64,000 nucleotides of DNA from Cordylochernes scorpioides (lineage: Eukaryota; Arthropoda; Arachnida; Pseudoscorpiones; Chernetidae): positions 6,425,292 to 6,489,291 of the forward strand of contig CP092877.1 in the NCBI GenBank assembly GCA_030710605.1, in the 5' to 3' direction. The notes beneath the pieces are model-generated. The model ran no database searches. It was not told where the DNA came from and was given only the letters and a program-made list of their open reading frames with translations. The translations under genes were made by a program, and so were the position numbers. Below are positions 12,506 to 49,337 of the stretch, in pieces; position 1 is the stretch's first letter; the number at the start of each line of letters is the position of its first letter.

Positions 12506-12539
12506 AATGATCGTTTTAAAGAGTTTAATTTCTACAATA

Positions 12540-16930: not shown

Positions 16931-17004
16931 GGATGAGAGGGTAACACGCTCGATTCCCGACAATAAGTCGGTGGATGAGAGGGTAACACGCTCGATTCCC
17001 GACA
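16931..17004. repeat. Tandem repeat, 42-bp period
   Basis: Two copies of GGATGAGAGGGTAACACGCT followed by CGATTCCCGACA, starting at 16931 and 16973. The CGATTCCCG core looks like a Pol III B-box, so this may be tRNA/SINE-derived; no full tRNA fold is visible. Confidence 0.6.
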
Positions 17005-17390
17005 GTCATGAACCGGGATTGAATCCCGCGTTAAAAATTGTTTAATATGTGAATAACTTTCACATATTATTCATTGTTCAATTATCATGAACTAGGTTGC
17101 TCTTGCTGAGCGGTACCTATTTATGTGAATTTGAACCAGGCTAGTGCGCCCCCACCACCGGCCAATGAATGCAATTCGGATAAGGAACCTACGACGTTCT
17201 CGGTTCCACACATATCAAACATATTTTTATGCAAAAAAATAGTACAAATGTGAAATTATAGTGGGATAAGGTAAATAAATTAAGAAAAATGTATATTTTT
17301 ATCTTGCAACTGAAAGTTTCTGATCGCTTGCACCATCTGTCGGAATAAATACCAACTATTCGTTAATTTTTCAATTATTTATTCCAGAAT

Positions 17391-17690
17391 TGGCGAAATA
17401 TACCCATTCTTTATTAATCAAGAAAAGCTAACCACGTGCACATTTTGGGCTGTTGGTCCTCGTCAGCGTGATGAAGCTATCCTCAACGACCAAAAACTGG
17501 TCATTAAGGCATCCTGAAAAATTATGAAACAGGTAGTTAAAGCCAGAAAGGCGTGGGAACGCGAAACAATGTGAAAACATAGTACAAAGGTGAAATTGTA
17601 CTGGGATAAGGTGGGTAAATTAAGAAAACAATTCTAATTATCGTGCAACTGAAAGTGCACGTGGTTAGCTTTTCTTGATTAATCAAGAAT
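17391..17690. mobile_element. Foldback element with decayed hammerhead core
   Basis: The ends are inverted copies (TTAATCAAGAAAAGCTAACC at the left, complement at the right). On the minus strand, near 17470-17437, CATCACG-CTGACGA-GG..C-CAACA-GCCC is followed by AAAA instead of the expected GAAA. It resembles a hammerhead ribozyme that has lost a core base. Related sequences are at 32005-32060 and 32650-32730. Confidence 0.55.
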
Positions 17691-18013
17691 GGAAATTAGG
17701 CTAATTATGGAATAATTACAGGGGCAGCTTCGATTTCATAACATCATATGAGAGCAATTATCAAATCTGTCGAATTTACAAAAAAAAAAAAAAAAGTTTA
17801 AAATAATGAAACGGCAAGATTTCAGGATAGAGAATTCTTTCAGACAAAAAAAAAAAGAGATCGATGCCCCCTCTCTTCCTTCTATAACTTGAGATGTTGT
17901 GTAGTAATAAGTTAATGTCATCACATTTTCTCTAACAGATCAATATTATGGGTTATATTATGTATGTCCATAACTCGAGAAATTCAGATAATCGAAAATA
18001 AATATTAATACCA

Positions 18014-18199
18014 CTTCAAATTAAAGATAATTCGGCCAGTAAATATTTTTTATTGTCTCGACGTTTCGACAAAAAAAAACAACAACTTTGGTTTTAATTG
18101 GGTTTTAATTTTTGTTCGCTCCTGAAGAAGACAAAGGTTTTTGTCGAAACGTCGAGTAAATAAAAAAGATTTACTGGCCGAAGTATATTTAATTTGAAG
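18014..18199. mobile_element. Foldback element with CTGAAGA-hairpin-GAAAC motif
   Basis: Inverted ends (CTTCAAATTAAAGATAATTC and its complement-like partner ending at 18199). The plus strand at 18122-18152 reads CTGAAGA, A, GACAAA-loop-TTTGTC, GAAACGTCGAG, with AATAAA shortly after. CTGAAGA fits the hammerhead CUGANGA core, but an extra A precedes the stem and no cleavage strand is found. A duplicate lies at 40173-40358. Confidence 0.7.
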
Positions 18200-19348
18200 A
18201 ACTATGAATGCCGGCCAGGCAGCCTCTATCTTTATGACATTAATACCACGTTAATCAAAGCACAAAAAGTTTAGAAAATGTTTTGTATTTTTTGAGTATG
18301 TTAAAATATTTTTATTTTTCCGTTTTATTTGTGTTATTTTTTACGTATTTTTAAATTTCCAAGATGACTGTTGTTTTTTTTTATTTTTAAAACCTTTTAG
18401 AGTTACTTTGCGCCATGAAGTTTATCAATTCGATTTTTTTTTAAGTCAAAAAGGAGATTTTTTAGTGATCGAAGTTGATTTTTATCCATCGAGGGCTTCA
18501 ATATAGTCGTCCACATGATTGAGGTTTTCTTAATGTTCTATGAAGCAGCATTGCTAAAAAGTGACTTGTGTATATATTTGGTATTTGGCATGTTTTTTCT
18601 TTCATCATATTCCATATTTTTCCGATGAGATTCATAGTTACCTTTGCAAAAATTGCCTAGGTAATTGTTATATATTTGGATACCATTGTTGATCCTTCGG
18701 ATTACTATCTTTAGCGCTTTTTTCTTATTGTAAGGAGTTTCATTCATTCCAAGGTTTACAGGAATGACTTACGTTACTTAGACTGACAATCCCTACATAT
18801 CCCTAATATTATTTCCTATATACTTCCGCGGCTATATATTGAATTCCTTTACTCTTTAAAAAATATTTATCAGAAATTTGACTTTTTATTGATTTTTTTT
18901 TCTTAATAACATATTTTGTTTACTAGTGAATTTCATTGGTAGCAAAGGAATTAAGGATATTTACAACATACGCAGAAAGGCTAAAATATTTCCTGCATAT
19001 ATTATTTTCTATCAAATTAAAATTGAGATAGATTCGCGCGGTATAGCTATAGAGTCAAGAAGACAATTTGTAATTCTCTAGAGGAAAATCCACGATTCAT
19101 CCCTTTCTATGGTATAATGGTTGAATTTACATTCTTGCCTCTTTTTATATTCCACAATAAATTGTTGGATCTGGCTAGCACCCCCACAAGGGAAGCGGTA
19201 AATGGAAGAAGTACTGTCTGCAATTCTTTTGCTGATAAATTCTCATCGATAAGTACTATGTCCATTGAGAGAGATTAATATTGAATAAACTTTTATTAAT
19301 CGTTTATATAATATTATATAAGGTAAATATATAAAATAAATAAGTATA

Positions 19349-20118
19349 TGTGGTGAGGACTGGTAGCCTCTTGTAGAATCCTGTCGACTAAAAATGTGAT
19401 GAGGTATCCAGTCGACTTATTCTATGGTGTGAGTCCCTGTAACTCTCGCTATACTGTGTTGACCGAGAGGAACAGTCAGGAGGGGGAGTTTTCCAGTACC
19501 TCTTAAAGGTTCTCACAGAATACAGGCAGTCGTGGTCGAGGCAGAGTGGAAAGCTTGGGAATGTCCATCACAAAAAACGAAGACACAGTTGCACTAAGAA
19601 AGTTCCGTGAACAGATAAAAGTTGAGCTAGGAGCGAAAGATGAGATATAGAAGATTTCTTACTGGTCTACATGATGGATGAGATGAACCTGGGGTACAAC
19701 CGACGAGGGCTCACGCAGATGGTGAAGTAACTGTATTTTTAGGTTAAAACGGGGGCTTTATATACCTTTTCTGAGAAAGGGAGTTTTGCATTTCACCAGA
19801 TGTGAAGAGTGTGGATCGTCTGGTGACATTCTAAACTGGCGCCGTCCTGACAGCTTCCAATCTATCTTTAGATATTGTTTGTGACTTCCATCTATCTCGA
19901 ATTTAGACGTTTTTGACTTCTATCTCTTTAGCTCAACTCTTAATCTATTACAGAGTTTCATTTATTTATCCTCAGTTTGTACAAAGTACATTACATATGA
20001 TGATGTAATGACACATGTCAATCATGCGTATAATCATTTACAGATGTGTTTCTATTATACAACATTAAAATATAGTTATAAGTTATATACAATATGTGGT
20101 TGTTGGTTTAAATTACCA
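19349..20118 (+). repeat. 5' LTR of a non-coding LTR retrotransposon
   Basis: Starts TGTGGTGAGGACTGG and ends TTAAATTACCA, 770 bp, with TG...CA termini. Copies lie at 23630-24366 (3' truncated) and 41507-42298 (solo). The solo copy defines both ends because it is flanked by TATA on each side. A candidate primer site TGGGCCCCGGGAGTG starts 5 bases after this LTR. Confidence 0.7.
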
Positions 20119-23100
20119 TAGATGGGCCCCGGGAGTGAAAGGGTTTATCCGGGTTTAAGCAGGTAAAGCCTCTCTAACACAGGTAAGTAATTAAAAATTC
20201 TTTTAATTAATTTAAACTGTGAGGGTTAAAAAGGGCTATAACAAGATGATTTGTTTGGATATATAAAAGTGAAATAAAAATGACATTTTTGTTTGATTTA
20301 AAAAAAAAAGATGATTAAAATAAAATGATGTCATAAAAATTCACATTCTAAGAGAATATCGGCGGGCGTTGGAAAGGGTTAGTAGTTGAAGAATATGCAA
20401 TTGTTAGGAGTGCACATGTAAACCAAATACTTAGATCCAGGTGCAAAGCGAGGAAATAGACTTGAGTGTCTTCCTAGGCAATGTTTCACTTGCGATCCTA
20501 TATAAGGGTTACAGTGTTTTGTTACAATTTTAGGGTTATTGGGTTGAAAAGTTGTTGAAGAAAAGAATTAATATGACTGAAAGGGGTGGTAGAGCCATGC
20601 GATAAGTAGAATTGTAGCGACAGTAGGTGGTCTGACTTGACTCGAAATCAAAGGTTGATTGTGGTCCGCTAGAGCTGGAAAAAAAAGTTGAAAGTTTAAA
20701 AAATTGAACACTTTGTGAATGCGTTGGTGATTTGCTCTGCGGATGACTGAAATAAACTCTTGAAGCGTGTTCAGACCAGAAGTTAGGATTTTTAAATCTG
20801 GGGAACTGTGTTCAAAGAGTTTGTTAAAATTACGAAATAAAAAAATTGTCAAGCAGTACAGTTGTTTTTCTACGTTGATGTGAAGTAATGGCTGAAAAGA
20901 TAGTAATAATAAAGTATAGGAAATTGGTTAAAGAATATGATTGTTGAAAACGATTGTTGTAGATGCCCGATAGTTGATGATAAACATTGTCATATAATAA
21001 AGGTATTTAAAAAAATGAAATATAGTGAATAAAAATATAGAAATATGATTGCAGGTAAAAAAAAGGTGTAAGTGGACAAAATAAACATGTTATATATAAA
21101 AGATATAATAATTAAGAATTAAAAATGATTTTTGAAACAATTAAATGTTTTGCAATACTAAAATAATATCATGAAAAATAAAAGTAAATTTGATTAAAGT
21201 TTTTTTTTTTTAAATAATGTTGGACTAAAAATTGATTATATAATTGAAAGATAAAAATGAAACTAAATATTCAAGATTTTATACAAAAATTAGAATATAA
21301 TCAAAGGTTATTAATGATTGGATAAATGATGGGTAGTGGAAAATTGAACAAAATAGTCTCTTTAGAAGAAAGGTTACAACTGTGGTGTGTAACTAGATCA
21401 TATCCCATTGGTAAACATCGGTGTTTTTTGACTCTCTGAAACTGGTAATACGTGAAATGACATTTTCATTTGTCCAAAATGGTGGTATTTAGAGAATGAT
21501 TTCTCTTTTGCGTCATAAAGTCTATATAAGACTTAACCAAATTGTTTTAATTGGTGATATCAATTAACATGTAAAATATTTAATGTATGTTGTTGTGTGC
21601 TGTGATTAAGGCGTTGGTGAGATTTGTAAGAAAACCTAAATGGTTAGTGTGAAACATGTGTTTAAAAAATGGCGAACATGAAGATAGCGGTCAATAACAT
21701 CTGCCTTGAGCGGGGACATTTAACTGAAATAGATTCGGGGATTCTATTACTGGGGTCACTCCTCCTGTTTTTCACGGGAATTGCCGGGTTATATTTCTGG
21801 GATGGTCACACATGTGGGATGGTTTGCTATGTTTGTCATTTACTTGAAACTGACTTTCTTCTTTGTCGAGGTTGGCAATTTTCTTGCCTATTTGAAAATA
21901 TAGTTTTCTCGATGTTCGTAAGTGGTTGTGTTTTCGAAGTTGTTTAGACTTAGTAAAAATGCTAAGCAGTGATGTCAGGTGTAGATGTGTGGTGAAAGTG
22001 CGACTTTCGACGTGGACACGCTTTGGGGTGAGATGTGTAACAGGCGTGAAGGCGTCTTTGGCCAGAAAAGTGAAAAGGTTTTGTGGTGTGGCGCTGTGAC
22101 ACGAAGTGGAAATTTGTGAATGAAAAGGTGTCACGTGAAGTCGTTGTTTTGGCACAAGATCTAACAGTTTCACCATGAATAACAAATTTACTAGTCATGG
22201 GTGGTGGGTGTATGAAACACATCGAGAATTTTTGACTGTTAGTGGATATGGCACGTTTAATGCGAACTTTTTTTAGTGTTTAGTGGGGCGACGTTATGGA
22301 GCTCGTGGGGCTCGAAATTGGATTTGTGCTAAGTCGCGCGTTATTAATTGTTGCCAATTGGAGAGATTGATGTGTGGGAATGTTGTAAGGTTTGTTGAAA
22401 GAAATGTGTTGATGACCAATCATGCATGTAAAAGGAAAAGACGAGCGAGTGTGACTATGTTGGATTTTTAACTTGTTTTGGGGAAGGACAGTTATTTTTC
22501 TAGTTGTAATTTTGAAGATATTGTATTTTTCGATTTTTTCAATTAAAAAAAATGCTTTTCACCTATGTTAATTCATATTTAAAATTTGAATATATTTTTC
22601 AAAATCGTTGATTATGGTAGTTAAAATGATTATTGGAAAAGGGCAATGGTGTGATAGAAAAATACTTTGAATTGGGGTGTTTATATAAAATGGTGATATG
22701 ACAATGATTTTGCAAAATTTTAAGAATTGATGAAGATATTGGTCTTTTGGTATAAAGATAACTAATAAGAAAAACAAAAATAAGTTTAGAATTATGATGA
22801 ATGAGAGATTTTTAAAAATAATAATAATGATTTTTTTAGTTATAGATTTGGATAATGCCATATTAGGTGAATTTTGAGAAAAAATGTAAGATTAGTAAAT
22901 TGGTAAAAATGCGTGATGGGCGAATTTTTTTTAAAAGTAATATTGAGAGTAATAACTTGAAATTTATAATCTGATTAAAATTTAAAGTAGATTTGATAAA
23001 TTTGAGTTTGAAAGTTTTAAAAATTGAATAAAAAATGTATAAAAAAGGTGAAAATTGATTTTAAAATGCTTAAAGTGAAAATATAAATACAATAATTATG

Positions 23101-23629
23101 GGGAATCAAGTTGTGAACTTGAAGATAAAGTTATGGTAGGTTTTTTAAAAACTTACAATTGTGTGATGCTTGTTCAGTCAGGAAACTTGGTCTCTGGTTG
23201 TTTTCCTGATGACGTGGAAAGCGCTCCATGTAGGGCTTGTAGAAGCTTGTAGCTTCTGTGAATTTGATCGCGGCTTGTCGCTTTGAGCATTGTCTCGACG
23301 ATGTCAGGTCGAAGGGGAGAACTTGTCACCGGATTTGGGTCATTCTGCTCCTCGATTGCCATGACTTGCGGGAATTTCAACTGTGTCGTTGGGGTGGTCA
23401 GACAGCTTGCTCCCGGCGTTGGAGAGCTGTGTTAGCGGGTCTGCGGAGGTCCCTTGGGGCGTCGTTTCTTCTGTAAATATCTCTTGTTGGGGGAGAGATT
23501 TGCTTGATCGTTTTGTTGGAATGGTCGGTTTGTTCCTCCATCTTCGCTCTTTCTCGCTTCTATCTGGAAAGTCTTCTTACCTTCTTCGTTGTGTCATTCT
23601 TCGTTTTGGTCATACTGTCGACTATGAAA
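20119..23629 (+). mobile_element. Non-coding internal region of the LTR retrotransposon (LARD-like)
   Basis: About 3.5 kb lie between the two LTR copies. A possible primer-binding site (TGGGCCCCGGGAGTG, 20123-20137) follows the 5' LTR; the tRNA is not identified. The rest is AT-rich with a G/T-rich stretch (about 21350-22460) and contains no gag or pol motif on either strand. The open frames at 21669-21947 (+) and 21772-22185 (-) overlap each other and have no recognisable domain. No clear polypurine tract precedes the right LTR. Large retrotransposon derivatives (LARDs) have this form: LTRs and a non-coding interior, moved by proteins supplied in trans. Confidence 0.5.
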
Positions 23630-24366
23630 TGTGGTGAGGACTGGTAGCCTCTTGTAGAATCCTGTCGACTAAAAATGTGATGAGGTATCCAGTCGACTTA
23701 TTCTATGGTGTGAGTCCCTGTAACTCTCGCTATGCTGTGTTGACCGAGAGGAACAGTCAGGATGGGGAGTTTTCCAGTACCTCTCTGCACCTTGTAAGAC
23801 CTTTAAAAGTTCTCACTCGAGGCAGAGTGGAAAGCTTGGGAATGTCGAATAATAATAAATACAAAAAACGAAGACACAGTTGCACTAAGAAAGTTCCGTG
23901 AACAGATAAAAGTTGAGCTAGGAGCGAAAGATGGAGATATAAAAGATTTATTACTGGTCTACATGATGGATGAGATGGATCTGGGGTACAACCGGCGAGG
24001 GCTCACGCAGATGGTGAAGTAACTGTATTTTTAGGTTAAAACGGGGGCATTATATGCCTTTTCTGAGAAAGGGAGTTTTGCATTTCGCCAGATATGAAGA
24101 GTGTGGATCGTCTGGTGACCTTCTAAACTGGCGCCGTCCTAACAGCTTCCAATCTATCTTTAGATGTTGTTTGTGACTCCCATCTATCTCGAATTTAGAC
24201 GTTTTGACTTCTATCTCTTTAGCTCAACTCTTAATCTATTACAGAGTTTTATTTATTTATCCTCAGTTTGTACAAAGTACATTACATATGATGATGTAAT
24301 GACACATGTCAATAATGCGTATAATCATTTACAGATGTGTTTCTATCATACAACATGAAAATCTTG
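23630..24366 (+). repeat. 3' LTR of the LARD-like element, 3' truncated
   Basis: Matches 19349-20118 from TGTGGTGAGG up to AAAATCTTG, then changes abruptly into the second duplicated block. The last part of the LTR and about 0.85 kb of flank present in the other copy (42303-43149) are missing, which points to a deletion here. Confidence 0.75.
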
Positions 24367-25079
24367 TGTGAAAAAGGAAGATAGTTACTTAATTATAAAG
24401 TATATTTTATTTTCAATTTTTTTTTTACTTGAAACGAATTACACATTGAATATTTTTCACAGAAATATAGAATTTATAAAATGAATCCTATATTCGTGAA
24501 GTAAAAAAATGGGTAGGTTAACTATACATATTTACAAAATTTATTCAAAGAGTATTTTAAATCTATGATCAAAAATAAAGAAAAGTCAATGATGAAAATT
24601 AAATACATGTTTTTAAAAAATAAAATATTTGCAATTTAGATTATATACACAGTAGTAAGTATTATATATATATATGAAAGGATATTTATTTCACTAAAGC
24701 CTCCCTTTGATCATTTTCATTTTTTAAATGGAAAGTGACACTTCTATTATTATGGGCCTGTCATATTGCAAATGATCCTGTCGACTTAAACGGGTCTACT
24801 GTTGAAACCCCGAGTAAACCGACGTGTGAATAAACTGGTAGTCGTAAGTCGTGAGGTGAAGTGTTGAGGTTTTTCCCGCACGTGGACAGCAAGAAGCAGA
24901 GACAGGGCTAGATGTTAGCACTGAGCTGGTCGGAGACAGCCCACGGGACAGAGGTGGAGGCCATGATACAAACCTGGATGCCTAATACCGAGACAAGGAG
25001 AGATAGCCAGAAGCGGCCTGCGTAGATGGACACACCGTATCATACTCTGAGCTGTCACTGCTGTGTTGACCCCAGGAGG

Positions 25080-25140
25080 AATCGCCTATAAAAAGCCCCG
25101 GAAGGGGCCTCATCCTGGGCGTGCCATGTCCTTTAGCTTT
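25080..25140 (+). promoter_or_regulatory. Possible Pol II promoter (TATA box)
   Basis: CCTATAAAAAGCCCCGGAAG sits in locally GC-rich sequence, followed about 25-30 bases later by CTCATCCTGGGC. The same arrangement is kept in the duplicate near 46240-46290. It may belong to an old LTR; no gene is seen downstream. Confidence 0.3.
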
Positions 25141-25760
25141 GTCTCGTAGCTGTCCTTAGACCACTCTTTTTATGTTTTATTTTGACGTCATCATTTTGAG
25201 CTCAAATACAAATAAGGATGATACAGGTTATATTAATAAATAGATAGCTTTTCATACAAAATATGGGGGGTGGTAGCAAATAGGAGCAGTGTACATTTTA
25301 ATAGAAGGGTATGTGTGTGTGATCTTATAAACTAGTGACTCTAACTTAACTAATTAGAAGATATGTGAAACATTACTAACAGTGTTATTATATTAAAATT
25401 AAAAATATACTACAGGCCCATATACACATTTTTATCTCATAAGTGTAAATAGAGAGTCTAGACAAGTTTACATATGAACAGTTTCCAATTAAAATCTCGA
25501 AAGAGAAAATGCCTAAAACCAATTTTTAAAAGTATATATAAATTATGATAATTTCTGAAACGCAATTAACCCCAGTTACATTTGATAAGAAATATAAATA
25601 GTACATTCTGATTTATTAGCATCAAACACACTTAAGTATCGTTTATTTCGCTGCTTCCATCCATGTTATTCAGATGTATTGCCCTGAGCAAAGCAATTAC
25701 ACACGGTACCATCCATTCATTTATTGACTTAAATAAAAATTACCTTTTTTCTCTATACGC

Positions 25761-26102
25761 CTAAGCACAACGATTTCCAATTTTAAGCTGAAAAAAGAGA
25801 CTTTGCGGTGTTTTTAGGCCCATCGACTTCTGTAATGAACCAGACGTAGTTTTTATGAGGCAGTTATTAGGTGTGGTGCTCTGAGAGGTGTTTATTAAAG
25901 TTGAAGTAGCAGCTCTTTCTTTCCCCAGTCTGCCAGCCTTTGTTTTTCTCACCGCCGATAATTCTCCATAGCCTGCATTATCATAATAAAATATTAATTT
26001 GCATCTTGGTGAGAGGATCTTAACTTTTTCTATTTGATCATTAAACTTCTTTTTAGGTAATGTAGAGTTTGAATTAGTTTTTACCAGTCTCCTTGAAAAC
26101 AA
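25761..26102 (-). other. Unrecognised open frame, 113 codons
   Basis: A lysine- and serine-rich frame ending KTPQSLFFQLKIGNRCA-stop, with AATAAA shortly downstream on the same strand. A pyrimidine-rich stretch CTCTCTTTGTTTTCAAG just upstream could be a splice acceptor, but I could not find an upstream exon in a compatible phase. The duplicate near 46900-47240 keeps the sequence but has lost one T in a run, which shortens the frame to 63 codons. I know no family for it. It could be a terminal exon of a host gene or chance. Confidence 0.2.
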
Positions 26103-26439
26103 AGAGAGAGTGGTTTATTAACTTTTCAGCCTTAACTATTATCAGTATCAATAATATTTGGCTCTCAAATTAAGAAGACAGGTATATTTATAGGAAACAC
26201 ATCATGTGAGTATTAATATAATCTAATATAGAGAGGCGAAGAGAGAAAGGTTTTTACCTAGGTCCATATTTGTTCGACTTACCGTCTCTCTTTTAATAGT
26301 GGTTATAAACTCTATAACACACACAGACGATTCGACGAACCAAGAATAAGTTGATTAAGTTGATTGATATATGTGAAGAACATGTATAGGGAAAAAATAT
26401 TTAAGAACAATCAATAGTTTTATTCCAGAGTTTGATCGT

Positions 26440-27240
26440 CACAAATTGAGAAGGTCAATATGGCCTCGGACTCCAACTGGCCTGGATGCAGGCTGCCACC
26501 CGGCCTGTACCGGACTAATAAAGATTCCGGATAATGTGCTGCGGGATTTCCTCCAAAATGTCTCCAACTGTCGAGCTACATAGTGAACAGACCAGGATGG
26601 TTACAATCGCCTTCTCATCACGTCTAAGATGTGTTCTATGGGTGAGATATCATGCTACCTTGCTGGACACGGAAGAGTTCGGCAAAATTGAAGTAAATCT
26701 ACAATAACCCGTGTGTGGCCGGATATTATCTTGTTAAAAAGTAAGGCCGGAGTAGATGTGAAAGGAATGGAAACAAAACAGGACGTAGAATGTCATCTAT
26801 GCTTAGTTATTCTGTAAGGGTGCCAGGTATGACTACCAATGGGATCCTGATATCAAATGACACCCCAGACCATAACGCCCTGTTGTGGACCTGTGTCGTG
26901 TTCGAAAGTAAGGCCAGGATCCACTCGCTGCCCAGGACGTCTTCAGACACGTCGTCAGGACACAGTAAGACACCACTGTAGTTGGACTTGTCGGTGTAAG
27001 GGGGGGGAGGGATAGGCATCGTTACTGTTGGCAAGCTCTTAGATTCCACTAAGTCGTCTGTTCATGATCATTTTGGACACTTGTGTGCCGGTAAACGTTG
27101 AAAAGTAGATAACGTTGAATCCGGTGCTGTGACAGCCGTTCTGACAATCGCTATGTCCTTCTCGTTCTGTTTTGTCCCTTGATCGACCGCTGCCGTCCTG
27201 ACGTTGCATTCTTCCTTTGCTGATCCTCTCTTGTCAACAT
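26440..27240 (-). pseudogene. Tc1-type transposase pseudogene
   Basis: Broken minus-strand blocks of a Tc1-type transposase: AIVRTAVTAPDSTLST (DNA-binding domain end, about 27150-27100), GVMVWGVI (about 26880-26860), a decayed block where the QDN motif should be, PAR.HDISPIEHILDVMRRRL (about 26650-26600, with the third catalytic region) and a C-terminal tail with CNGLI/GAGWQPASRP-like residues near 26500. Several stops and frameshifts. The 3' terminal region at 26390-26440 (TATACATGTTCTTCAC on the minus strand) also ends the fragment at 27872-28080, so it is probably the transposon end. Confidence 0.75.
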
Positions 27241-29690: not shown

Positions 29691-29861
29691 ATATATATTA
29701 AAATAAAAAAGACATATACTAACCACAAGCACACGAGCCTTTTATAAGGCAGAGCGCCATTTAAAAAAGCTCATGAGCTCTTGGTCAGGAAATGTCTTTT
29801 TTTATTTTGATACCAACAACTGACCTTTTTTATTTTTATTGTTTTTCATATATATATATAG

Positions 29862-30145
29862 ATGAAAGTTTTGCCGGGAAGAAATTGATCTAAAGAGACA
29901 AGGGTCGCCGCTCCCGTCAAAATAGACGTCTAAAACCAGACGCCATCTATTGACCGTCGCCGCAGCTAGCGGCCTCGGGTCGATGACAAAGCCACAACAC
30001 CAGCTTTGGCAAACTGAAAAGCGTCCACCTAGAGACCATGGTTTCGGGCTAATGGCCCTCGTCAGTCTAGGGCGGACTTTATTCCATGAGATCCACACGG
30101 GATCTAATGGAATCTTGACAATCTTCCAAAGAGGTGTTTAGCTGG
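29862..30145 (-). mobile_element. Short hammerhead-bearing repeat (retrozyme-like), copy 1
   Basis: A non-coding unit that shares its plus-strand left half (GATCTAAAGAGACAAGGGTC through CAGCTTTGGCAAACTGAAA) with the foldback at 30176-30505. The minus strand carries a full minimal hammerhead (30028-30071). A decayed relative lies at 16720-16880 (CCATCTGTTGACCGT, CAACACCAGCTTCGG). Small non-coding elements with type I hammerheads of this design are known from animals (retrozymes and PLE-associated repeats). Outer limits are approximate. Confidence 0.6.
30028..30071 (-). ncRNA. Minimal type I hammerhead ribozyme
   Basis: Read on the minus strand from 30071: CCTAGA (stem I), CTGACGA (core CUGANGA), GGGC-CATTA-GCCC (stem II), GAA, then AC-CATG-GT (short stem III closed by the required A-U pair), C as the cleavage nucleotide (site GUC, 30036-30034), and TCTAGG (stem I partner, 30033-30028). 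All invariant core positions of the hammerhead fold are present and stem I (6 bp) and stem II (4 bp) are perfect. The 2-bp stem III with a 4-base loop is typical of PLE/retrozyme hammerheads, which are thought to work better as dimers. Self-cleavage would separate units of a tandem transcript. Confidence 0.85.
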
Positions 30146-30175
30146 CAAAGTGGCTGGGCCATATCTATGGCTAAA

Positions 30176-30505
30176 ATATAGATGGAAACCTTGCCGGGAA
30201 GAAATTGATCTAAAGAGACAAGGGTCGCCTCTCCCGTCAAAATAGACGTCTAAAACCAGACGCCATCTATTGACCGTCGCTGCAACAAGCGGCCTCGGGT
30301 CGGTGACAAAGCCACAGCATCAGCTTTGGCAAACTGAAACCGAAACCGAAATCATGGTCTCTAGGTGGACCCTTTTCAGTTTGCGAAAGCTGGTTTTGTG
30401 GCTTTGTCACCGACCCGAGGCCGCTAGTTGCGGCGACGGTCAATAGATGGCGTCTGGTTTTAGACGTCTAGTTTGACGGGAGAGGCGACCCTTGTCTCTT
30501 TAGAT
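30176..30505. mobile_element. Foldback made from the hammerhead-bearing repeat
   Basis: Arms of about 130 bp (from about 30208 to 30340 and 30370 to 30505) are inverted copies of the 29862-30145 left half. At the centre, plus-strand 30348-30365 reads GAAATCATGGTCTCTAGG: the 3' half of the same hammerhead (GAAA, stem III, GUC, stem I) with one change in stem III. The CUGANGA half is missing. Confidence 0.7.
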
Positions 30506-30509
30506 ATAT

Positions 30510-30784
30510 ATGCATATGTCGTACAAAAAACACTAGCAGTCATGGGCCTCAAGGTCAGGCGTCAATGGGAGTCACAAAGGACGAAGCAGGTTGAATGTCA
30601 CCTAGAAGCCATCGCCTAAGACGCGACAAGGTCCAGGAGGGATGTGACACACAGGAGAGGGAGAGATGAACTGTCCGGCCTGTTTGACGGTGGGGGTTGA
30701 CGTAAACCTATATAATGTCTTCTGAAATATAATTGGGTGCGGCGGACTCTCAATAAAACTTTATTGCTTTGTTTGTGATAACAT
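30510..30784 (+). repeat. Solo-LTR-like repeat, family of three (copy 3)
   Basis: Shares GAATGTCACCTAGA, GTCCAGGAGGGATGTG and GGCGGACTCTCAATAAAACT with 27433-27771 and 11805-12105, then GATAACATGATGGCCAAGCT as in copy 2. Confidence 0.4.
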
Positions 30785-30925: not shown

Positions 30926-31012
30926 TGTGGTCATGTGGCCTAGTGGTCATAGCATCTGCCCGGTAAGCGGAAGGTCGTGGGTTCGATTCCCATCCCTTGA
31001 CACTTTTTTTTA
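30926..31012 (+). repeat. tRNA-derived SINE head (tRNA-Thr-like)
   Basis: A-box TGGCCTAGTGG (about 30936) and B-box GGTTCGATTCC (about 30979) with correct spacing, a paired anticodon arm TCTGC-CCGGTAA-GCGGA (anticodon GGT, but C instead of U33) and a paired T arm. The acceptor strands do not pair, so it is not a functional tRNA. A run of T follows, which would stop Pol III. Confidence 0.55.
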
Positions 31013-31860: not shown

Positions 31861-32830
31861 ATATATTAAAAATAAAGAAGGCGTATCCTGACCAAAAGCA
31901 CATTATTTTTTTCCTATTGTTTTTCATATATATATTTACATGAAAATACAATAGAAAAATAAAAAATAAAAAGGTCTGGTGTTGATATTAAAAATGAAAA
32001 AGTGCGACAACAGCGCGAAACGCGTTCGTGGATGACTTTTCTTGATTTATTGAGAAATTGTGAGTTGGCCAAATATCAGGGAACAGGTTAAATCAATGAA
32101 TAGTTGATTTCTGTTCCACCAGATGGCGCTCTGCCTTCTGTAAACATATTATATATACACATACATATATGAATAGAAAATAAGGAAGAGTAAGATAAAA
32201 AAAAATGAGTAGAAGGAAGTCTATATTTTTATTTTTGAGGTCAATATTCTTAATTTATCAATAAATATTTAAATATTTAACGGCAATAAATAACAACGGA
32301 ACCAAGTATATAAATCGGCTTTTACACGTCATACGGTTGTCCAAAAAAACAACTGGGGTAAGGAAACAGATATTCTTGAATTAAAAGGATAAAGTAAAAG
32401 AGTAATCTAAAAAGGTAATCTGAAAAGTAAACTTTTTAAAATAATATATAAATACTCTATTCATGGGGAAAAAAGGCCAAACTTGCGTAAATACGCCAAA
32501 CATGAGTAAAATATTTTATTTTTAATAAAAAGGCCAGGTATTGATATTAAAAACAAAATAGGGGCATAAACTGACCACAAACATGCGCGTCTTTAATACC
32601 CATTTCTTGACTTCTCAAGAAGCCTCTGGGATCAAAATAATTTTGTTCGTAAAGGTACAGTCTGCATCACGCTAACGACGGCCAGCTGCCTGAAACCCTT
32701 TCGTTGTTGGCTTTTCTTGATTTTTCAAGAAAATAGGTTGGCCAAATATCTAGGGAAATGTTAAATCAACGTTTAGTTGATTTTTGTTCCACTATATAGC
32801 GCTCTGCCTGTTGAGAATTAAAATGTATAT
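31860..32830 (+). repeat. Cluster of short elements with decayed hammerhead-like ends
   Basis: Two related units. Near 32005 the plus strand reads GCGCGAAACGCGTTCGTGGATG, and near 32664 GCATCACG-CTAACGA-CGGCCAGCTGCC-T-GAAAC. Both are followed by GCTTTTCTTGATT or ACTTTTCTTGATT and, later, by TTGTTCCAC..GATGGCGCTCTGCC. The termini (AAAAAGGTCTGGTGTTGATA, AAAGGCCAGGTATTGATATT) also recur near 29820. They look like one non-autonomous family with a lost ribozyme. Confidence 0.5.
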
Positions 32831-33297: not shown

Positions 33298-33533
33298 ACA
33301 AATTTTTCCTCTTAATGAGCTTTTTTTTTTTTTAATTGCAAGCTTTCAAAAGATAATCGCTCTTCAACGAGCTCAATTAAAACAATGAGCTATTTCTTAC
33401 AAGAATTATTCACAAATATTTGTTAATATTTCTTGTAAGAAATAGTGATTTGTTTAATTAGGATCGTTGAAGAGCGATTATCGCTTGAAAGTTTACAATT
33501 TAAAATGAAAAAGAAACTCATTGTGAGAAAATA
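33298..33533. mobile_element. Foldback element, CACAATGAG family (long arms)
   Basis: Arms of about 115 bp pair across a centre near 33420 (ATTTCTTGTAAGAAAT). Each arm has a GTTGAAGAGCGATTATCGCTTGAAAG type motif. Related to 14210-14400 and 2575-2690. Confidence 0.75.
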
Positions 33534-33689
33534 TTTGTAGTTTTTCAAAACTAACTCTATACATTGAACATGGTGATCAGAGTGTATCAATGGGATAGTT
33601 CCGCACGTCACAGAACATATCCGAGATATGTTCTACGGCTGACTGGATTGTTCAACACTAGAGTGTAGGGAATGGACGACTATCAGGGG

Positions 33690-35060
33690 TCGGCAAACCT
33701 TTGGGTCAGAGGATTTTAACATTATTATGCGATTTATTTAATAAATGCATTCACTTCGGATACTATCCAGATAGATGGAAAGAGGCAGCTTTCAGGATAA
33801 TTTCAAAACCTCACAAAACGAATTTAGAATTAGTAAAGAGTTATCGACCTATTTCATTAATTTCTAACTCATCAAAAATATTTGAAAAAAAAAATTGAAA
33901 AATAAAATATACGAATACTATGAAAAAAATTATCTCCTTAGCCCCAGACAACATGGTTTCTTGAAGAATAAGTCAACAACAACCTATTTGAAAGAAATCA
34001 CAAACATCATAATGGAATATAGACAGAAACAACTAGTTACGCTGATTACAATTGATATACAAGGAGCGTTTGATAATACATGGTGGCCAGCCTTGTTTAA
34101 AAAATTAGACGAAGACAATTTACCAGTTGAATTGATCAAAATTTTACGTTCTTTTTTGAAAAATAGAAAAACGATTTTCAAGTATAATAATATGAAAGTT
34201 TCAAAGATATTAACAAAAGGCTGTCCTCAGGGTGGACCATTGTCTCTGTTGTTTTGGCTGATATATTTAAATGATCTGCTTACTAATTTGCAATCACCAA
34301 ACTCTGAAATCATTTGTTATGCTGATGATGTAACTATTATATGTTGGAATAATGGGTTAATAAATCTAAAAAAAAGTCTATTGAGTTTAATTTGGAAAAG
34401 ATAGATCAATGGTGTAATGATAATAAGCTAAATATCAATCTTGATAAAACTAGTATTTTACACTTGCACAATAAAGACAAAATTTCAATTAATTTTAGAG
34501 ACAATATTATTGTGCCCGTAGAAGAAATTAAAATTCTTGGAATTACGATTGCGAATCATAGATGGAAAAACAAATTGAATTTTGGCCCTCACCTTAACAT
34601 TATACTAAACAAAACCCAAAGATTGAAAAACCTTCTTTTTTCAATATGTGGAAAATCTTGGGGTCTTAGCACCCAAAAAAGGCTTACACTTTATAAATCT
34701 ATAATAAGACCATCGTTAACTTACGGAACAGAAATATGGTTTCAATTTATTGGCAAAAAATATATGTACAAACTGAACTCAATGCAATATCAAATTCTGC
34801 TATGGTGTACCCAAACATATAAAACAACCAGTTATAACTGTGTTCACACCTTAGCCAATATTCCTTTGATCACTGATTATATGGAATCTAGAATTATAGG
34901 TTATGAGTTGAATAATTTATCAACAGAAGATAAACAATTTTATTATTTGTATATTCCAGGTATACTCAAAGATTTCATTATATCAAGGATTAATTTACTC
35001 TGAAAAAGAATACTAATCAAACATTTCAAAGTTTCTTTCCTTATGATATTCCGAAATATT
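33690..35060 (+). pseudogene. R1-clade LINE reverse transcriptase fragment (5' truncated, two frameshifts)
   Basis: Three consecutive frames. 33690-33895 has the start of the RT domain (FGYYPDRWKEAAFRIISKP, SYRPISLISNSSKIFEK). 33895-34390 has motifs in order: RQHGFLKNKSTTTYL, IDIQGAFDNTWWPALF (motif A), KGCPQGGPLSLLFWLIYLND (motif B) and ICYADDVTII (motif C, catalytic YADD). 34392-35003 has the thumb and a C-terminal region (KILGITIANH, SIIRPSLTYGTEIWF). DIQGAFDNTWW and GCPQGGPLS are typical of the R1/LOA side of LINEs. The endonuclease and ORF1 are missing. Its 3' end touches the left border of the duplicated block at 35101. Confidence 0.85.
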
Positions 35061-36928
35061 TTCGACCAAACTATTATAATTCACAATTTATCACAGATCA
35101 TGGCGTCACTATATATATGTATTATAGATAAAATTTCCTTTTACATGATTGTAGATGTATTGCCTCAATAAATATTCTGAAACAATTTCCATTTAAACGG
35201 TATCAGGAAGCGTCACCGCAGGCACTCTTGGTTATTTTACCATAAAAGCAACAATTACCATTGTAGCTAGAGAAATCCATATTTATGTAGTCCCTGTTAA
35301 TCGTCATCTTATAAAACTCTTCATAGTCGCGTTACAAACCTTCAAACTCAAAATTGCTCAAAGTAATTAAGAAGAAGTTAAATAAACGTTTGATGTATGG
35401 CAGAGGCATTTGTGCGAGTGGTCAATCTGAAGTCTGTTAAATATTCAATATTTAAATTGGGGTTTGGAAGGTTTTTAATTTACTATCAGTGTGGAAACAA
35501 ATAATATTATAATGCTAAATGAACAATTACAATAATCCACCAGCTTATTATCCTGAAATTCCTTTATATTAGAAAATTCTAATGTAAAGTTTGAAAGCTT
35601 GTAGCCCGCCTATGCTAAGAGGAACTACGTAAATACAAGTTACTTGTATGTATAGTACTTGTATGTATTTCTTTGGCTACAATGCTTATTGATGCTTTTC
35701 AGGTAAAATAACCCAGAGCGCGGTAACGTTTTCTCAAACCATTCAAATAGAAAAGTTCTTGGGAATTTTCTAAGGATATTATTTTGAAAGGTAATTTATC
35801 TATTATATATATATTTTTAAATTAGAATTTAATAATATTACATGTTGATTATATAATATATATATATTGTCGCCGCTATATAATATAAATGAAATAGATA
35901 GGGCTGTATAAATGAAACAATACAATTGATTATCAGCTGTGGAAGCAGTTGGTTGCGAGGAACAGACTCAGAAGATATTTATATCGGTCAGTGGCTGTGG
36001 GCAGACTATCTTCAGAGATCAATTAAATTTTGATATACATGTCTTTATCCCGTCGACCTTCGTAGGAAAATTCTCGGTAAATGGAATAGTTGCATATCTT
36101 GGCACAATCGTTCCAGATATTTCCGAGCAACTTTGAGTCCGACTTGGTTCCTGCTCCCTATTTAGCAACTAACCGGCCACTGATAAGTTCTCACCAATAG
36201 CGACTATATGTCCTGGAATCTCTATAATAGATTAGGGCTACTAGAACAAAAGGAATACCTTCACTTTAATTCTACATTCCCATCATGTATTCAGCCGTAT
36301 TGATATCTGTTTTTATCTATTTTTTGTTTGGCTCCTAATATACCTACAATAAATAATTGCATAGTTTTAAAATTACAAAATATTTTCTCACAATGAGTTT
36401 CATTTTATTCCAAAACGCTAGCTTTCAAGTGACAATCGCTCTTCAACGGGCTTAATAAAAAATATCAACTATATCTTACAAGAAATATTTACAAAAACAT
36501 ACGCGCGCAGCGTGAATATTTGCAAAAAAAAAAAAACTCATTGTGAGAAAATATTTTGTAATTTCAAATGTTTTTCATATTTGCATAGTATTTTAATAGC
36601 GTTTTTACAATAAAAATTGTTAAGTAAATATATATTGTTTTCACACAGTTTGGATAATCTCCAAATACACCTCCGCGACGGAATACTGTTCTAGTTGTTT
36701 GGATTTATTTGTAAGCCATATTCACTGATTTTTATTTATTAATTTATTATTTATAAACACATTCTATCACGCCGTTTGTTTATATTTTTTATAACATTGT
36801 ATGTTTATTTTTATCGTTTGTTAAATTTCAAATATAATTGAGACTTGATATAATAATGGCCAACTACTACATTCATCTTATTTATTCATTGTTTTTCTTC
36901 AAAACAAGAGCTATGATAAATATTAATA

Positions 36929-37101
36929 CAGTAGAACTTGGATAATTCGAACTTCTTTAATTCGAAAACCTCTTTAATTCGAATATTTATCTTGGTCCCC
37001 AGAATTTCTTATAATTATAATTTCCGTTTTTAATTCGAATTTTTGGATAATTCGAATTTTTTTTATGGTCCCTTGGGGTTCGAATTATCCAAGTTCGACT
37101 G
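36929..37101. mobile_element. pogo/Tigger-type MITE, duplicate copy
   Basis: Same element as 14767-14938 with one extra T; TA on both sides. Confidence 0.85.
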
Positions 37102-40100
37102 TAATATACATATGGAAACATAATATTCTTGCATAAAATCCCCCATTGAACAAATATTGTATTGGAAGCGCAGCAGACCAATGACGGCTGTTTGTTCAGG
37201 TTTGTTCCCACTCCCGCGAAGAATTAAAAGGACAAACAAAAGCCCTCAAACGATAGATTATTAATTAACTGGCGTGTGGTCGTTGAATATTCAATCGCAG
37301 ACGACACCAATCTGGGCGCGACAGCCATAAGATCATTAGCCTCGGCGCCATTTGCATAATAGCTTGTTGCATCAGTACTGGGAGGAACAGACGTACTGGC
37401 CATTCAATTATTTACATATGTGCAGAGACGATATTCACTCACTCCACTTTTTATTTACTCTTTATATATATATATTATATATATATATGAAATTTTAGGA
37501 GCGATATTTCAAAATTCCCAGGTAGTTATTTACTAAACTACTTGTTGTTTACCTGTGTAGAAATTCTGTTTTATGTCCGGATGATCAACATTATTTATTG
37601 CATTGATCTATCATTTACATATGAATAGAGACTATTTTTCAAATTTTACCAATTAATTTCCTTTATTTTTATACAATAAACTATATTCGTCTTATATACA
37701 TATGTGTGAGGACGACATTTGAACTTATAGGCAACTTTATTACCTCGTTACATGAGTAGAGACGTTGTATGAAGATTCACAGAGAGCGAAGAAACAATGT
37801 TCTAGAATTAAAATATTCACAAATCCCAAAAGAGTTTGTTTAAAGAATAAACATTCATTCTTCTGTACATAGATCTTTATGTTCGATGGTCCTAACTCTT
37901 CTTTCAGTAAATTTCGTTTTCCAGATTTGTATGCAAAACATTATAATTGCATCTTTTTTGTTGTTGTTATTTTTGAAGTGACTCTGCGAAGGAAATTGTT
38001 TATTAATCTGAAATGATAGTAGCCTAAGTATTTGAGAAATGTCTCTTTATTTTTCAATCAAATAGAAAAATGTAATCTAAAAAGTGAAATTTAAAAAAAT
38101 ATTATATATATATATGACATAATAAAAATATGATTTTTATTATTCATAAAATAATAAAACTTCTATAATCACAGAGTTAAATTTTAAAATGAAAAGGAAT
38201 CCTTAACAAAAGGAATACAACCTAATTTTACTTTTATTGAAAATAGATAATAACATTTTTAGTTGTATGTATGCAAAAAACTGTTTGCTTTAAAAATAAT
38301 CAAAATAATAAATATTTTTTGGAACAAAAGTTATCATTCATTTTTACCATCCACGACTGCATGAATTGGTAACGTAACTAGAATACGTCTTTTTTTATGA
38401 CATATATATGTCGTATTTTATATTATATGTTGCATATACAATGTTGAACATAGAAACAAAAATAAATATTACATGATATAACTTAAAAATGATGTTGAAT
38501 AAAAATATCACCGGAATAAAAAGACGGCATCCAAAAAGGTCAATAACAGGTCGTTGACATTGCCCAAGCAACTGAAAGGGGATGCAAGCATATCCGCCAT
38601 GTCATTCCCTGATTGGACGCGGACGGAAAACCAAATTCGTCCTCTCTGACGTCACCACTAACATATAACTGGGTTGTTATTAAGCCCAGAATACAGAGGA
38701 GAATGAGGAGTCATGTAGTTAGGTCGCCGTGCTGCGCCAACAGTCCCAGGATTCCTCTTAATCTGTCTCACTATCCTGGCTGCCATCCCTGCAACAATTC
38801 TGTGGTCTTCTTCTGTCTTCAATATTTGAATTAATTTTCCTGTTAGAAATTGATCTATAAATAAAATAGAAAGTCTTCCGTCAAATTAACCGCAACATCT
38901 ATCCGCCATCTGTTGACCGTTTCTTTGATCGACTCGGGTTGGGGACAAAGTCGCAACACCAGCTTCGGAAAATTAAAGAAGTTCACCTGACAATTTACTT
39001 CAGACGAAATTTCTATCCATAGTTTGTCCATCGAATCCACCTAGCAAATTTATTTTCTATACATGTCTTTGGCAGATTCAGATCATATCACGAGGATGAG
39101 AGGGTAACACGCTCGATTCCCGACAATAAGTCGGTGGATGAGAGGGTAACACGCTCGATTCCCGACAGTCATGAACCGGGATTGAATCCCGCGTTAAAAA
39201 TTGTTTAATATGTGAATAACTTTCACATATTATTCATTGTTCAATTATCATGAACTAGGTTGCTCTTGCTGAGCGGTACCTATTTATGTGAATTTGAACC
39301 AGGCTAGTGCGCCCCCACCACCGGCCAATGAATGCAATTCGGATAAGGAACCTACGACGTTCTCGGTTCCACACATATCAAACATATTTTTATGCAAAAA
39401 AATAGTACAAATGTGAAATTATAGTGGGATAAGGTAAATAAATTAAGAAAAATGTATATTTTTATCTTGCAACTGAAAGTTTCTGATCGCTTGCACCATC
39501 TGTCGGAATAAATACCAACTATTCGTTAATTTTTCAATTATTTATTCCAGAATTGGCGAAATATACCCATTCTTTATTAATCAAGAAAAGCTAACCACGT
39601 GCACATTTTGGGCTGTTGGTCCTCGTCAGCGTGATGAAGCTATCCTCAACGACCAAAAACTGGTCATTAAGGCATCCTGAAAAATTATGAAACAGGTAGT
39701 TAAAGCCAGAAAGGCGTGGGAACGCGAAACAATGTGAAAACATAGTACAAAGGTGAAATTGTACTGGGATAAGGTGGGTAAATTAAGAAAACAATTCTAA
39801 TTATCGTGCAACTGAAAGTGCACGTGGTTAGCTTTTCTTGATTAATCAAGAATGGAAATTAGGCTAATTATGGAATAATTACAGGGGCAGCTTCGATTTC
39901 ATAACATCATATGAGAGCAATTATCAAATCTGTCGAATTTACAAAAAAAAAAAAAGTTTAAAATAATGAAACGGCAAGATTTCAGGATAGAGAATTCTTT
40001 CAGACAAAAAAAAAAGAGATCGATGCCCCCTCTCTTCCTTCTATAACTTGAGATGTTGTGTAGTAATAAGTTAATGTCATCACATTTTCTCTAACAGATC

Positions 40101-41506
40101 AATATTATGGGTTATATTATGTATGTCCATAACTCGAGAAATTCAGATAATCGAAAATAAATATTAATACCACTTCAAATTAAAGATAATTCGGCCAGTA
40201 AATATTTTTTATTGTCTCGACGTTTCGACAAAAAAAAACAACAACTTTGGTTTTAATTGGGTTTTAATTTTTGTTCGCTCCTGAAGAAGACAAAGGTTTT
40301 TGTCGAAACGTCGAGTAAATAAAAAAGATTTACTGGCCGAAGTATATTTAATTTGAAGAACTATGAATGCCGGCCAGGCAGCCTCTATCTTTATGACATT
40401 AATACCACGTTAATCAAAGCACAAAAAGTTTAGAAAATGTTTTGTATTTTTTGAGTATGTTAAAATATTTTTATTTTTCCGTTTTATTTGTGTTATTTTT
40501 TACGTATTTTTAAATTTCCAAGATGACTGTTGTTTTTTTTTATTTTTAAAAACCTTTTAGAGTTACTTTGCGCCATGAAGTTTATCAATTCGATTTTTTT
40601 TTAAGTCAAAAAGGAGATTTTTTAGTGATCGAAGTTGATTTTTATCCATCGAGGGCTTCAATATAGTCGTCCACATGATTGAGGTTTTCTTAATGTTCTA
40701 TGAAGCAGCATTGCTAAAAAGTGACTTGTGTATATATTTGGTATTTGGCATGTTTTTTCTTTCTTCATATTCCATATTTTTCCGATGAGATTCATAGTTA
40801 CCTTTGCAAAAATTGCCTAGATAATTGTTATATATTTGGATACCATTGTTGATCCTTCGGATTACTATCTTTGGCGCTTTTTTCAAATTGTAAGGAGTTT
40901 TATTCATTCCAAGGTTTACAGGAATGACTTACGTTACTTGGACTGACAATCCCTACATATCCCTAATATTATTTCCTATATACCTCCGCGGCTATATATT
41001 GAATTCCTCTACTCTTTAAAAAATATTTATCAGAAATTTGACTTTTTATTGATTTTTTTCTTTATAACATATTTTGTTTACTGGTGAATTTCATTGGTAG
41101 CAATGGAATTATGGATATTTACAACATACGCAGAAAGGCTAAAATATTTCCTGCATATATTATTTTATATCAAATTAAAATTGAGATAGATTCGCGCGGT
41201 ATAGCTGTAGAGTCAAGAAGACAATTTGTAATTCTTTAGAGGAAAATCCACGATTCATCCCTTTCTATGGTATAATGGTTGAATTTACATTCTTGCCTCT
41301 TTTTATATTCCACAATAAATTGTTGGATCTGGCTAGCACCCCCACAAGGGAAGCGGTAAATGGAAGAAGTACTGTCTGCAATTCTTTTGCTGATAAATTC
41401 TCATCGATAAGTACTATGTCCATTGAGAGAGATTAATATTGAATATACTTTTATTAATCGTTTATATAATATTATATAAGGTAAATATATAAAATAAATA
41501 AGTATA

Positions 41507-42298
41507 TGTGGTGAGGACTGGTAGCCTCTTGTAGAATCCTGTCGACTAAAAATGTGATGAGGTATCCAGTCGACTTATTCTATGGTGTGAGTCCCTGTCG
41601 ACTCTCGCTATACTGTGTTGACCGAGAGGAACAGTCAGGATGGGGAGTTTTCCAGTACCTCTCTGCACCTTGGAAGACCTTTAAAAGTTCTCACAGAGTA
41701 CAGGCAGTCGTGGTCGAGGCAGTGTGGAAAGCTTGGGAAAGTCCATCACAAAAAACGAAGACACAGTTGCACTAAGAAAGTTACGTGAACAGATAAAAGT
41801 TGAGCGCTAGGAGCGAAAGATGGAGATATAGAAGAATTCTTACTGGTCTACATGATGGATGAGATGGACCTGGGGTTCAACCGACGAGGGCTCACGCAGA
41901 TGGTGAAGTAACTGTATATTTAGGTTAAAACGGGGGCTTTATATACCTTTTCTGAGAAAGGGAGTTTTGCGTTTCACCAGATGTGAAGAGTGTGGATCGT
42001 CTGGTGACATTCTAAAATGGCGCCGTCCTGACAGCTTCCAATCTATCTTTAGATGTTGTTTGTGACTTCCATCTATCTCGAATTTAGACGTTTTGACTTC
42101 TATCTCTTTAGCTCAACTCTTAATCTATTACATAGTTTTATTTATTTATCCTCAGTTTGTACAAAGTACACTACATATGATGATGTAATGACACATGTCA
42201 ATAATGCGTATAATCATTTACAGATGTGTTTCTATTATACAACATTAAAATCTTGTTATAAGTTATATACAATATGGGGTTGTTGGTTTAAATTGCCA
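41507..42298 (+). repeat. Solo LTR with TATA target duplication
   Basis: TGTGGTGAGG...AAATTGCCA, 792 bp, flanked by TATA at 41503-41506 and 42299-42302. It corresponds to the LTRs at 19349-20118 and 23630-24366. Here the internal region is absent, so LTR-LTR recombination has probably removed it. Confidence 0.75.
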
Positions 42299-42302
42299 TA
42301 TA

Positions 42303-43149
42303 TATGTGATGATTTAAGACCATGGAATTGTTGTAAATAGTCTAGATATCTACTACCACATGTTCCACCCCATGACTGTATATAACTTCTTATGTACTGC
42401 AAATAGAAAGCCTCAACTAACATCAATCTGTACCGCGTAAGAATCTAATAAAGTATAGCAACTGTACAGATAGAAGGAATGGAGACTAACAGGAGAAAAT
42501 TAAGGTTAAAACTAATCAGGCTTAGGTGAGAGTAGAAGTAAGACCTAGGAAGTAGGCTTAGAAGAGAACACACTATTAATAAATTTACAGTCAATTTTAT
42601 GAATCGCGGAAATCATAAAAGTCGAGTTTAACGGCCAGTATTTCCTGGGCCAGGCCGGATATATCTTCCGACAAAAGCAGCAGCAAAGACCAATTAGAAG
42701 ACAATACCTAAGTAGGTCAACCAATAGCCAACGGCCATGTGACATATTCCTACCAATTAGGAAAGAATCACCTAAATAGGTCAACCAATAGAAAACGGTC
42801 ATGTGACAGCTTCCTACCAATTAGAAAGAAGAAAGGTCTTGGTGTTAAATCGAGAACCTAGGTTAGGCAGTCCGCGCTTGGATCCCAACGGTAACACTTG
42901 CTCTAAAGATCTCTCTCTCCCCTCATCCCATTCCTTCTTGACGTCAGACGCTTCTTAGTGGAATCTCTGTTTGTTTATTTCACCTTTGGCCCAGCTGTGT
43001 CGCCTTCCACCACGACTGCACGGTAGAGTTGACATCGAGGTTCGTCTAGAATCAGGTAACACTGGTCCCAGAGGTCCCAAGATATCACATATATATGTTA
43101 TGATTATAATGTTTTGATGTTGGAATGATGAAGAATTTGAGGTGCAATC
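42303..43149. other. Flank of the solo LTR, no gene; 64-bp imperfect tandem repeat
   Basis: Present only in this copy of the duplicated region. A unit with AGGTCAACCAATAG and CATGTGACA and TTCCTACCAATTAG occurs twice (about 42713-42776 and 42777-42836). No coding sequence recognised. Confidence 0.5.
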
Positions 43150-45543: not shown

Positions 45544-45587
45544 GATTGCATAGGATCGCTGGAAAGATCCTACTGGAGGGGGAGTAG

Positions 45588-49302: not shown

Positions 49303-49337
49303 AAATATATATATATATACATATATATATATAATAA

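Follow-up and report, generated by a model that had tools for sequence, protein, structure and literature searches.

The locus examined here lies in a 64-kb window of Cordylochernes scorpioides DNA, the window being the whole stretch that was analysed. It is composed of three copies of one unit, termed c1 to c3, the first of which is complete and harbors a type I hammerhead motif on the minus strand. The features of the locus and of its flanks are as follows.

29847..29860, no strand assigned: left flank, TA repeat adjoining c1 on its RNA 3' side (sequence, end comparison)
29856..29887, minus: extension of c1 past the 3' end of c3, a candidate Penelope-like element (PLE) "tail" of 27-33 nt with ambiguous ends (end comparison)
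29856..30175, minus: complete unit c1, 320 bp (direct repeat at 320-bp spacing, circular fold, G+C, frames)
30028..30071, minus: type I hammerhead, putative ribozyme, 44 nt (sequence, covariance model R1, strict-grammar count)
30035..30042, minus: stem III and its loop, ACCATGGT, an 8-nt palindrome (sequence, two-molecule fold)
30176..30345, minus: tandem unit c2, truncated on its RNA 5' side before the hammerhead (repeat comparison)
30346..30505, plus: inverted partial unit c3, head-to-head with c2 (repeat comparison)
30505..30518, no strand assigned: right flank, TATATATGCATATG, adjoining c3 on its RNA 3' side (end comparison)

The sequence-only reading of this DNA had placed a short repeat at 29862-30145; the repeat is real, and its extent is slightly longer (29856-30175, 320 bp). 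Read as RNA, c1 and c2 point to the left and c3 to the right, so that their 5' sides meet centrally and their 3' ends face outward. Over 164 nt (30176-30339), c2 shares 93% identity with c1, its final few bases before c3 being ambiguous; c3 is 95% complementary to c1. This third copy starts within the hammerhead and keeps its 3' half, GAA-AUCAUGGU-C-UCUAGG, in which a single change turns a C-G pair of stem III into a U-G wobble, the pair being kept. Complete hammerheads at the locus thus amount to one, in c1, as c2 has none and c3 the 3' half only. Private substitutions, counted in 132 gap-free columns, number 3, 4 and 3 in the three copies, which is compatible with one template, one insertion and separate decay, three sequences being no proof of it.

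The hammerhead motif and its recognition by covariance models

On the minus strand, 30028-30071 reads CCTAGA-CTGACGA-GGGC-CATTA-GCCC-GAA-AC-CATG-GT-C-TCTAGG. Stem I pairs CCTAGA (30071-30066) with TCTAGG (30033-30028) over 6 bp and is the open helix, hence the assignment to type I. It is followed by the core box CTGACGA (30065-30059), by a 4-bp stem II (GGGC/GCCC) with the loop CATTA, by GAA (30045-30043), and by a stem III of 2 bp (AC-CATG-GT, 30042-30035) with an A-U closing pair. C17, the last base of the GUC triplet, lies at 30034, and cleavage is predicted between 30034 and 30033. All the hallmarks of type I, namely CUGANGA, stem II, GAA, the A-U closing stem III, H17 and an open stem I, are present at 30028-30071, and each part that the sequence-only reading had named is found there letter for letter. 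The base after the sixth pair of stem I is a U, and loop II has an A as its last base; these are the positions of the loop 1-loop 2 tertiary contact (canonical type) in the Schistosoma ribozyme. An alternative pairing of stem I, as a nearly uninterrupted helix with a single bulge, makes the case for a canonical loop 1 weaker.

The odds of such a motif arising by chance were estimated on random 64-kb sequences generated from the trinucleotide frequencies of the window. With a strict grammar (Watson-Crick pairs throughout, the sequence GAAA, and minimum lengths of 5, 4 and 2 bp for stems I, II and III), none of 1500 random sequences matches, against one match in the real window. A looser grammar returns 4 matches in 100 random windows, one of them with a stem I of at least 5 bp and a stem II of at least 4 bp.

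A covariance model, R1, was built from 18 viral type I hammerheads of IMG/VR (alignment A2). These 18 rows were retained from the 25 of alignment A1, seven being omitted because they were misaligned or of a different architecture (other stem III or stem I length). The pattern used to gather the training set prescribed the core and a single stem II sequence, the latter different from stem II in the window, and none of the 18 rows comes from the window. Run with filters off over the whole 64 kb, R1 reports 30028-30071 (minus) at 25.5 bits, with a rough E-value of 7.3e-6, as its sole clear match, the runner-up reaching 12.2 bits (E 0.25). The high scores of R1 on viral loci are no test of the model, because these loci include the sources of its training sequences. 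At E-values up to 1, R1 does not report the site 10235-10266 of viral locus L128, a hammerhead by eye with a window-like pattern, whose sequence belongs to A1 and not to A2.

The sequence-only reading had named an Rfam covariance-model hit as a check of its claim and counted a missing hit against it. The Rfam hammerhead families yield no match at 30028-30071, either at gathering score (34 bits for RF00163) or at E-values up to 10, so that, by Rfam, this check goes against the claim. A control set was therefore drawn from at least 120 IMG/VR stretches with a hammerhead pattern, in which, among the matches listed, 93 of 129 pattern occurrences complete a type I hammerhead under loose rules, with a stem III of at least 5 bp in 82 of these 93. 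When 16 of the viral loci, 13 of them with a type I reading, were submitted to Rfam, 14 gave hammerhead rows (21.6-44.7 bits), and only two, L027 (40.0) and L070 (35.9), reached a gathering score. L086 and L071, in both of which a hammerhead with a stem III of 7 bp is read, gave no row. A hammerhead with a 2-bp stem III is thus easily missed by Rfam, which was discarded as arbiter of 30028-30071 after this control. RF00163 gave no match anywhere in one genome and 14 control genomes, a result that is uninformative as a control.

A chance hammerhead-like sequence in an unrelated repeat, to which the silence of Rfam and the loose-grammar count would lend some room, is most improbable; it was rejected in view of the strict-grammar count, the score of the independent covariance model and the setting, the motif having a palindromic stem III and lying in a structured 320-bp tandem unit. 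The absence of strict matches in random sequence and the R1 score likewise bear out the improbability that the sequence-only reading had asserted. The motif at 30028-30071 is a well supported type I hammerhead and putative ribozyme.

Predicted dimer folding and relation to known hammerhead elements

The palindrome ACCATGGT, which spans stem III and its loop, is its own reverse complement, and an 8-bp stem is possible between two molecules. Stem III is absent from the lowest-energy fold of a single 77-nt copy. Two copies folded without constraint yield exactly a double hammerhead with a shared 8-bp stem III, at -60.2 kcal/mol versus 2 x -26.5 for single copies. Together, the palindrome and this predicted fold make dimer action likely, and the predicted hammerhead would probably be cut best as a dimer. 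Amphibian type I hammerheads with a weak stem III are described as acting as dimers (PMC7229834; PMC6155905). The unit itself is also strongly structured: a 320-nt circle is predicted to fold at -110.6 kcal/mol (z -4.4), where shuffled sequences average -87.1 (sd 5.3) and none of 200 is as low, and its opposite strand is nearly as structured (z -4.1).

These features resemble those of the metazoan non-LTR retrozymes (Cervera and de la Pena 2020, PMC7229834), which are described as having type I hammerheads whose 2-bp stem III is capped by a tetraloop, tandem units of 150-450 bp with G+C below 50%, no LTR, no convincing ORF, and a strongly self-paired predicted circle. The 320-bp unit, non-coding and without LTR, falls within the same limits (G+C 49.4% in c1). 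The sequence-only reading is supported as to the type I hammerhead, its very short stem III and its place in a small tandem unit without coding capacity, features likewise known from animal retrozymes and PLEs. The locus differs from the published retrozymes by its single complete hammerhead, its inverted head-to-head copy, and its ends lying ~30 nt apart; the word "inverted" is absent from the main text of PMC7229834, and no head-to-head retrozyme was found in the open-licence articles searched. At least two complete hammerheads in tandem characterise retrozymes, and this copy, as distinct from its family, has one. Its transcript would be cut once, so that no unit-length circle could be released from this locus, and the circular RNA production proposed in the sequence-only reading is unsupported here.

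The amphibian satellite hammerheads of newt and axolotl (PMC7229834) share a weak stem III with a tetraloop and dimer action, and in the axolotl type 1 hammerhead stem III is palindromic, as at 30028-30071. Their unit of 330-350 bp is close to the present 320 bp, and they form abundant tandem repeats, unlike this locus. PLEs with minimal hammerheads are alike in their partial tandem and head-to-head copy, their optional tail of 30-40 nt, and their AT-rich target (PMC3846280, PMC11167929). The likeness in the hammerhead comes from PMC11167929, the word "hammerhead" being absent from PMC3846280. The locus differs from PLEs in its unit, which has no reverse transcriptase ORF, and in its ends, which lie farther from the cleavage site. 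The viral type I hammerheads of IMG/VR share the core and the helix order, and differ by the longer stem III reported above and by their context. Searches of IMG/VR with two exact patterns gave no relative, and phages and plasmids gave no match. A 19-position pattern occurs in seven GTDB contigs, in which the longest match to the 650-bp locus is 20-35 bp each; these were taken as chance matches and discarded as relatives.

A coding role of the unit was rejected for want of a convincing ORF. The longest open frame read round the repeated unit counts 117 codons, in the RNA sense and without ATG, the longest open stretch in the real locus counts 94, and the longest ATG-started frame within these open frames counts 52, on the opposite strand. 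The ATG in loop III opens a frame that closes after 30 codons. No start codon is found at stem II, whereas the PLE hammerhead described in PMC11167929 overlaps the start of the ORF. Furthermore, no stop-to-stop ORF of at least 130 codons starts or ends between 22194 and 33886, and no second locus of the unit is found in the 64-kb window. Together with the strong self-pairing of the 320-nt circle, a trait reported for retrozymes, these observations make it unlikely that the unit is the pseudo-LTR (pLTR) of a PLE family that lost its ORF, with the hammerhead as the minimal ribozyme of that PLE and no retrozyme circle involved. The arrangement of direct and inverted copies with a tail is nonetheless that of PLE pLTRs (PMC3846280), the short palindromic stem III is that of dimer-acting types, and the alternative pairing of stem I points the same way.

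Other elements in the window

A scan for minimal hammerheads of the dimer type returns five matches in the window, 30028-30071 and a duplicated pair being among them, where a random window gives 0.18. With a perfect core and a stem I of at least 4 bp, three matches remain (two being the duplicated pair), against none in 600 random windows. This pair, at 18110-18168 (plus) and 40269-40327 (plus), displays a perfect core CTGAAGA, a 6-bp stem II, C17 and a 4-bp stem I, stem III being replaced by the palindrome ACGT; it is enclosed in the palindrome 18014-18199 and its duplicate 40173-40358. At 12411-12466 (plus), a minimal hammerhead-like motif has one core change and AGCT replacing stem III, and lies, its 3' side outward, in a 332-bp palindrome (12177-12508) that is 93% self-complementary. 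Degenerate hammerhead-like arms, seen by eye and unreported by the scan, occur in the palindromes 8939-9191 and 33298-33538. The motif points outward in all four of these palindromes (12177-12508, 18014-18199 with its duplicate, 8939-9191 and 33298-33538), and the long palindrome 7485-7673 has no hammerhead-like motif. At 48014-48069 (minus), a further hammerhead-like sequence with one core change lies ~350 nt downstream of an ORF (48418-49200, minus) whose C-terminal part matches GIY-YIG below threshold (Pfam E 0.015); the two look like a PLE 3' end with a putative ribozyme. R1 reports none of the minimal motifs at 12411, 18110, 40269 and 48014.

An AT-rich array of near-identical copies (99.0-99.8% identity) occupies 49330-64000 and adjoins an AT repeat. 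In this array, a full and a partial minus-strand copy face plus-strand copies, head-to-head around 55150. A GIY-YIG domain (Pfam E 1.6e-6) lies upstream of an ORF that is reverse-transcriptase-like by eye and has no Pfam match. The array resembles PLEs with permuted domains. A scaffold gap (49203-49302) lies beside the array, and a misassembly is thus possible. Elsewhere, 12934-26830 and 35095-47968 form a direct segmental duplication with ~22-kb spacing, its first 7.2 kb being 98.9% identical. The second copy contains a Ty3/gypsy-type insertion (43467-45788; direct repeats of ~200 bp, 98% identical) that is seemingly absent from the first. Closer to the locus, 30930-31002 (plus) is tRNA-like (Rfam 36.9 bits, no ARAGORN call) and is followed by a T run, possibly the head of a tRNA-derived SINE. 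AT-rich, MITE-like hairpins at 29696-29812 and 31903-31965 are related stretches that flank the locus, the left one being seemingly interrupted at the TA repeat that holds the retrozyme.

Insertion layout and candidate helper enzymes

The two RNA 3' ends of the locus lie 146 and 174-178 nt past the predicted hammerhead cut. No poly(A) is found at either end and no clear target-site duplication, the longest exact string common to 30 nt of each flank being ATATAT. Visual comparison showed no motif common to the 3' end of the unit and to the PLE-like 3' ends of the window.

PLE insertions are described as a full copy and a 5'-truncated one in partial tandem, or as completed by an inverted pLTR; inverted copies are most often head-to-head, a 31-bp tail is optional on one of them, and target-site duplications may be present or not (PMC3846280). 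The PLE protein of PMC11167929 acts on AT-rich DNA, both strands of which it cuts and extends, and reverse transcription initiates inside the template, at ~85-92 nt after the hammerhead cut as derived from the numbers of PMC11167929, where tails of 30-40 bp are also mentioned. According to the same article, hammerhead cleavage is dispensable for PLE insertion in vitro. A partial tandem, a head-to-head inverted copy, a candidate tail of ~30 nt and an AT-rich target are all found at the present locus. The inverted head-to-head copy, the palindromic stem III and this PLE-like insertion layout were absent from the sequence-only reading.

The contiguity of c1 and c2, in the same orientation and longer together than one unit, points to a circular or multimeric RNA template. 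Such an RNA would have been reverse-transcribed into a TA-rich site, a first cDNA of about 485-490 nt, which covers c1 and part of c2, exceeding one unit in length. A second cDNA (c3, 160 nt), probably primed from the other target strand, would have met the first head-to-head, the two cDNA starts lying ~30 nt apart on the RNA. As the layout resembles published PLE insertions, the helpers were most likely the reverse transcriptase and the GIY-YIG endonuclease encoded by a PLE. The array at 49330-64000, likewise tandem and head-to-head and ending at an AT repeat, speaks for the PLE reading, and the distance of the ends from the cut, well beyond ~85-92 nt, speaks against it, as do the absence of a clear target-site duplication and of a common end motif, and the dispensable hammerhead cleavage in vitro. 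In PMC3846280, head-to-head PLE repeats are attributed to self-priming on an antisense template, not to two-strand priming, and no evidence of cross-mobilisation between PLE families within one host is reported there. The PLE insertion step would be deduced from one locus, head-to-head polarity alone being a one-in-two outcome.

Twin priming by an ordinary non-LTR reverse transcriptase also yields an inverted 5' part. A retrozyme inserted by a LINE could have acquired its inverted copy in this way, and a reverse transcriptase domain at 33886-34404 is LINE-like by eye. LINEs are also listed, besides PLEs, as possible helpers in PMC7229834. This origin is quite improbable given that neither end of the locus has the poly(A) or a clear target-site duplication, and that the ends lie ~30 nt apart as in PLE tails, within TA repeats. 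Other palindromes and a large duplication in the window lend some weight to a DNA rearrangement after insertion (foldback or palindromic amplification of a single unit) as the source of the tandem and inverted layout. Such a rearrangement is very improbable, since each outer end abuts TA-rich DNA, the two corresponding to distinct points of the unit, and since the private substitutions are evenly spread over the three copies.

On balance, we consider that the locus probably represents a single decayed retrozyme of the animal non-LTR type, whose insertion was probably the work of PLE machinery and whose hammerhead probably acts as a dimer; the single complete hammerhead and the lack of a second locus in the window weigh against this reading. 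More specifically, and only tentatively, it may record, as a molecular fossil, the copying of a circular or multi-unit hammerhead RNA by a Penelope-like enzyme, with priming from the two strands of a TA-rich target after its cleavage. The kind of element is already known; the point of interest is the helper enzyme that this single locus suggests.

Animal retrozymes yield abundant small RNA circles, and their helper enzyme is not established in the articles cited here. PLEs are considered a strong candidate on the basis of shared hammerheads, shared tandem layout and co-occurrence (PMC7229834), and the retrozyme repeats are said to bear no motif revealing the helper (PMC7761336). An insertion layout is evidence of another kind than these arguments, here from one locus. 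Furthermore, as Rfam models can miss hammerheads with a weak stem III, hammerhead counts would be biased. If two-strand PLE priming is true, the locus would provide structural evidence as to which autonomous element mobilises animal retrozymes, and if the head-to-head layout with ends ~30 nt apart recurs among retrozyme copies, insertion junctions alone could reveal the helper in many genomes.
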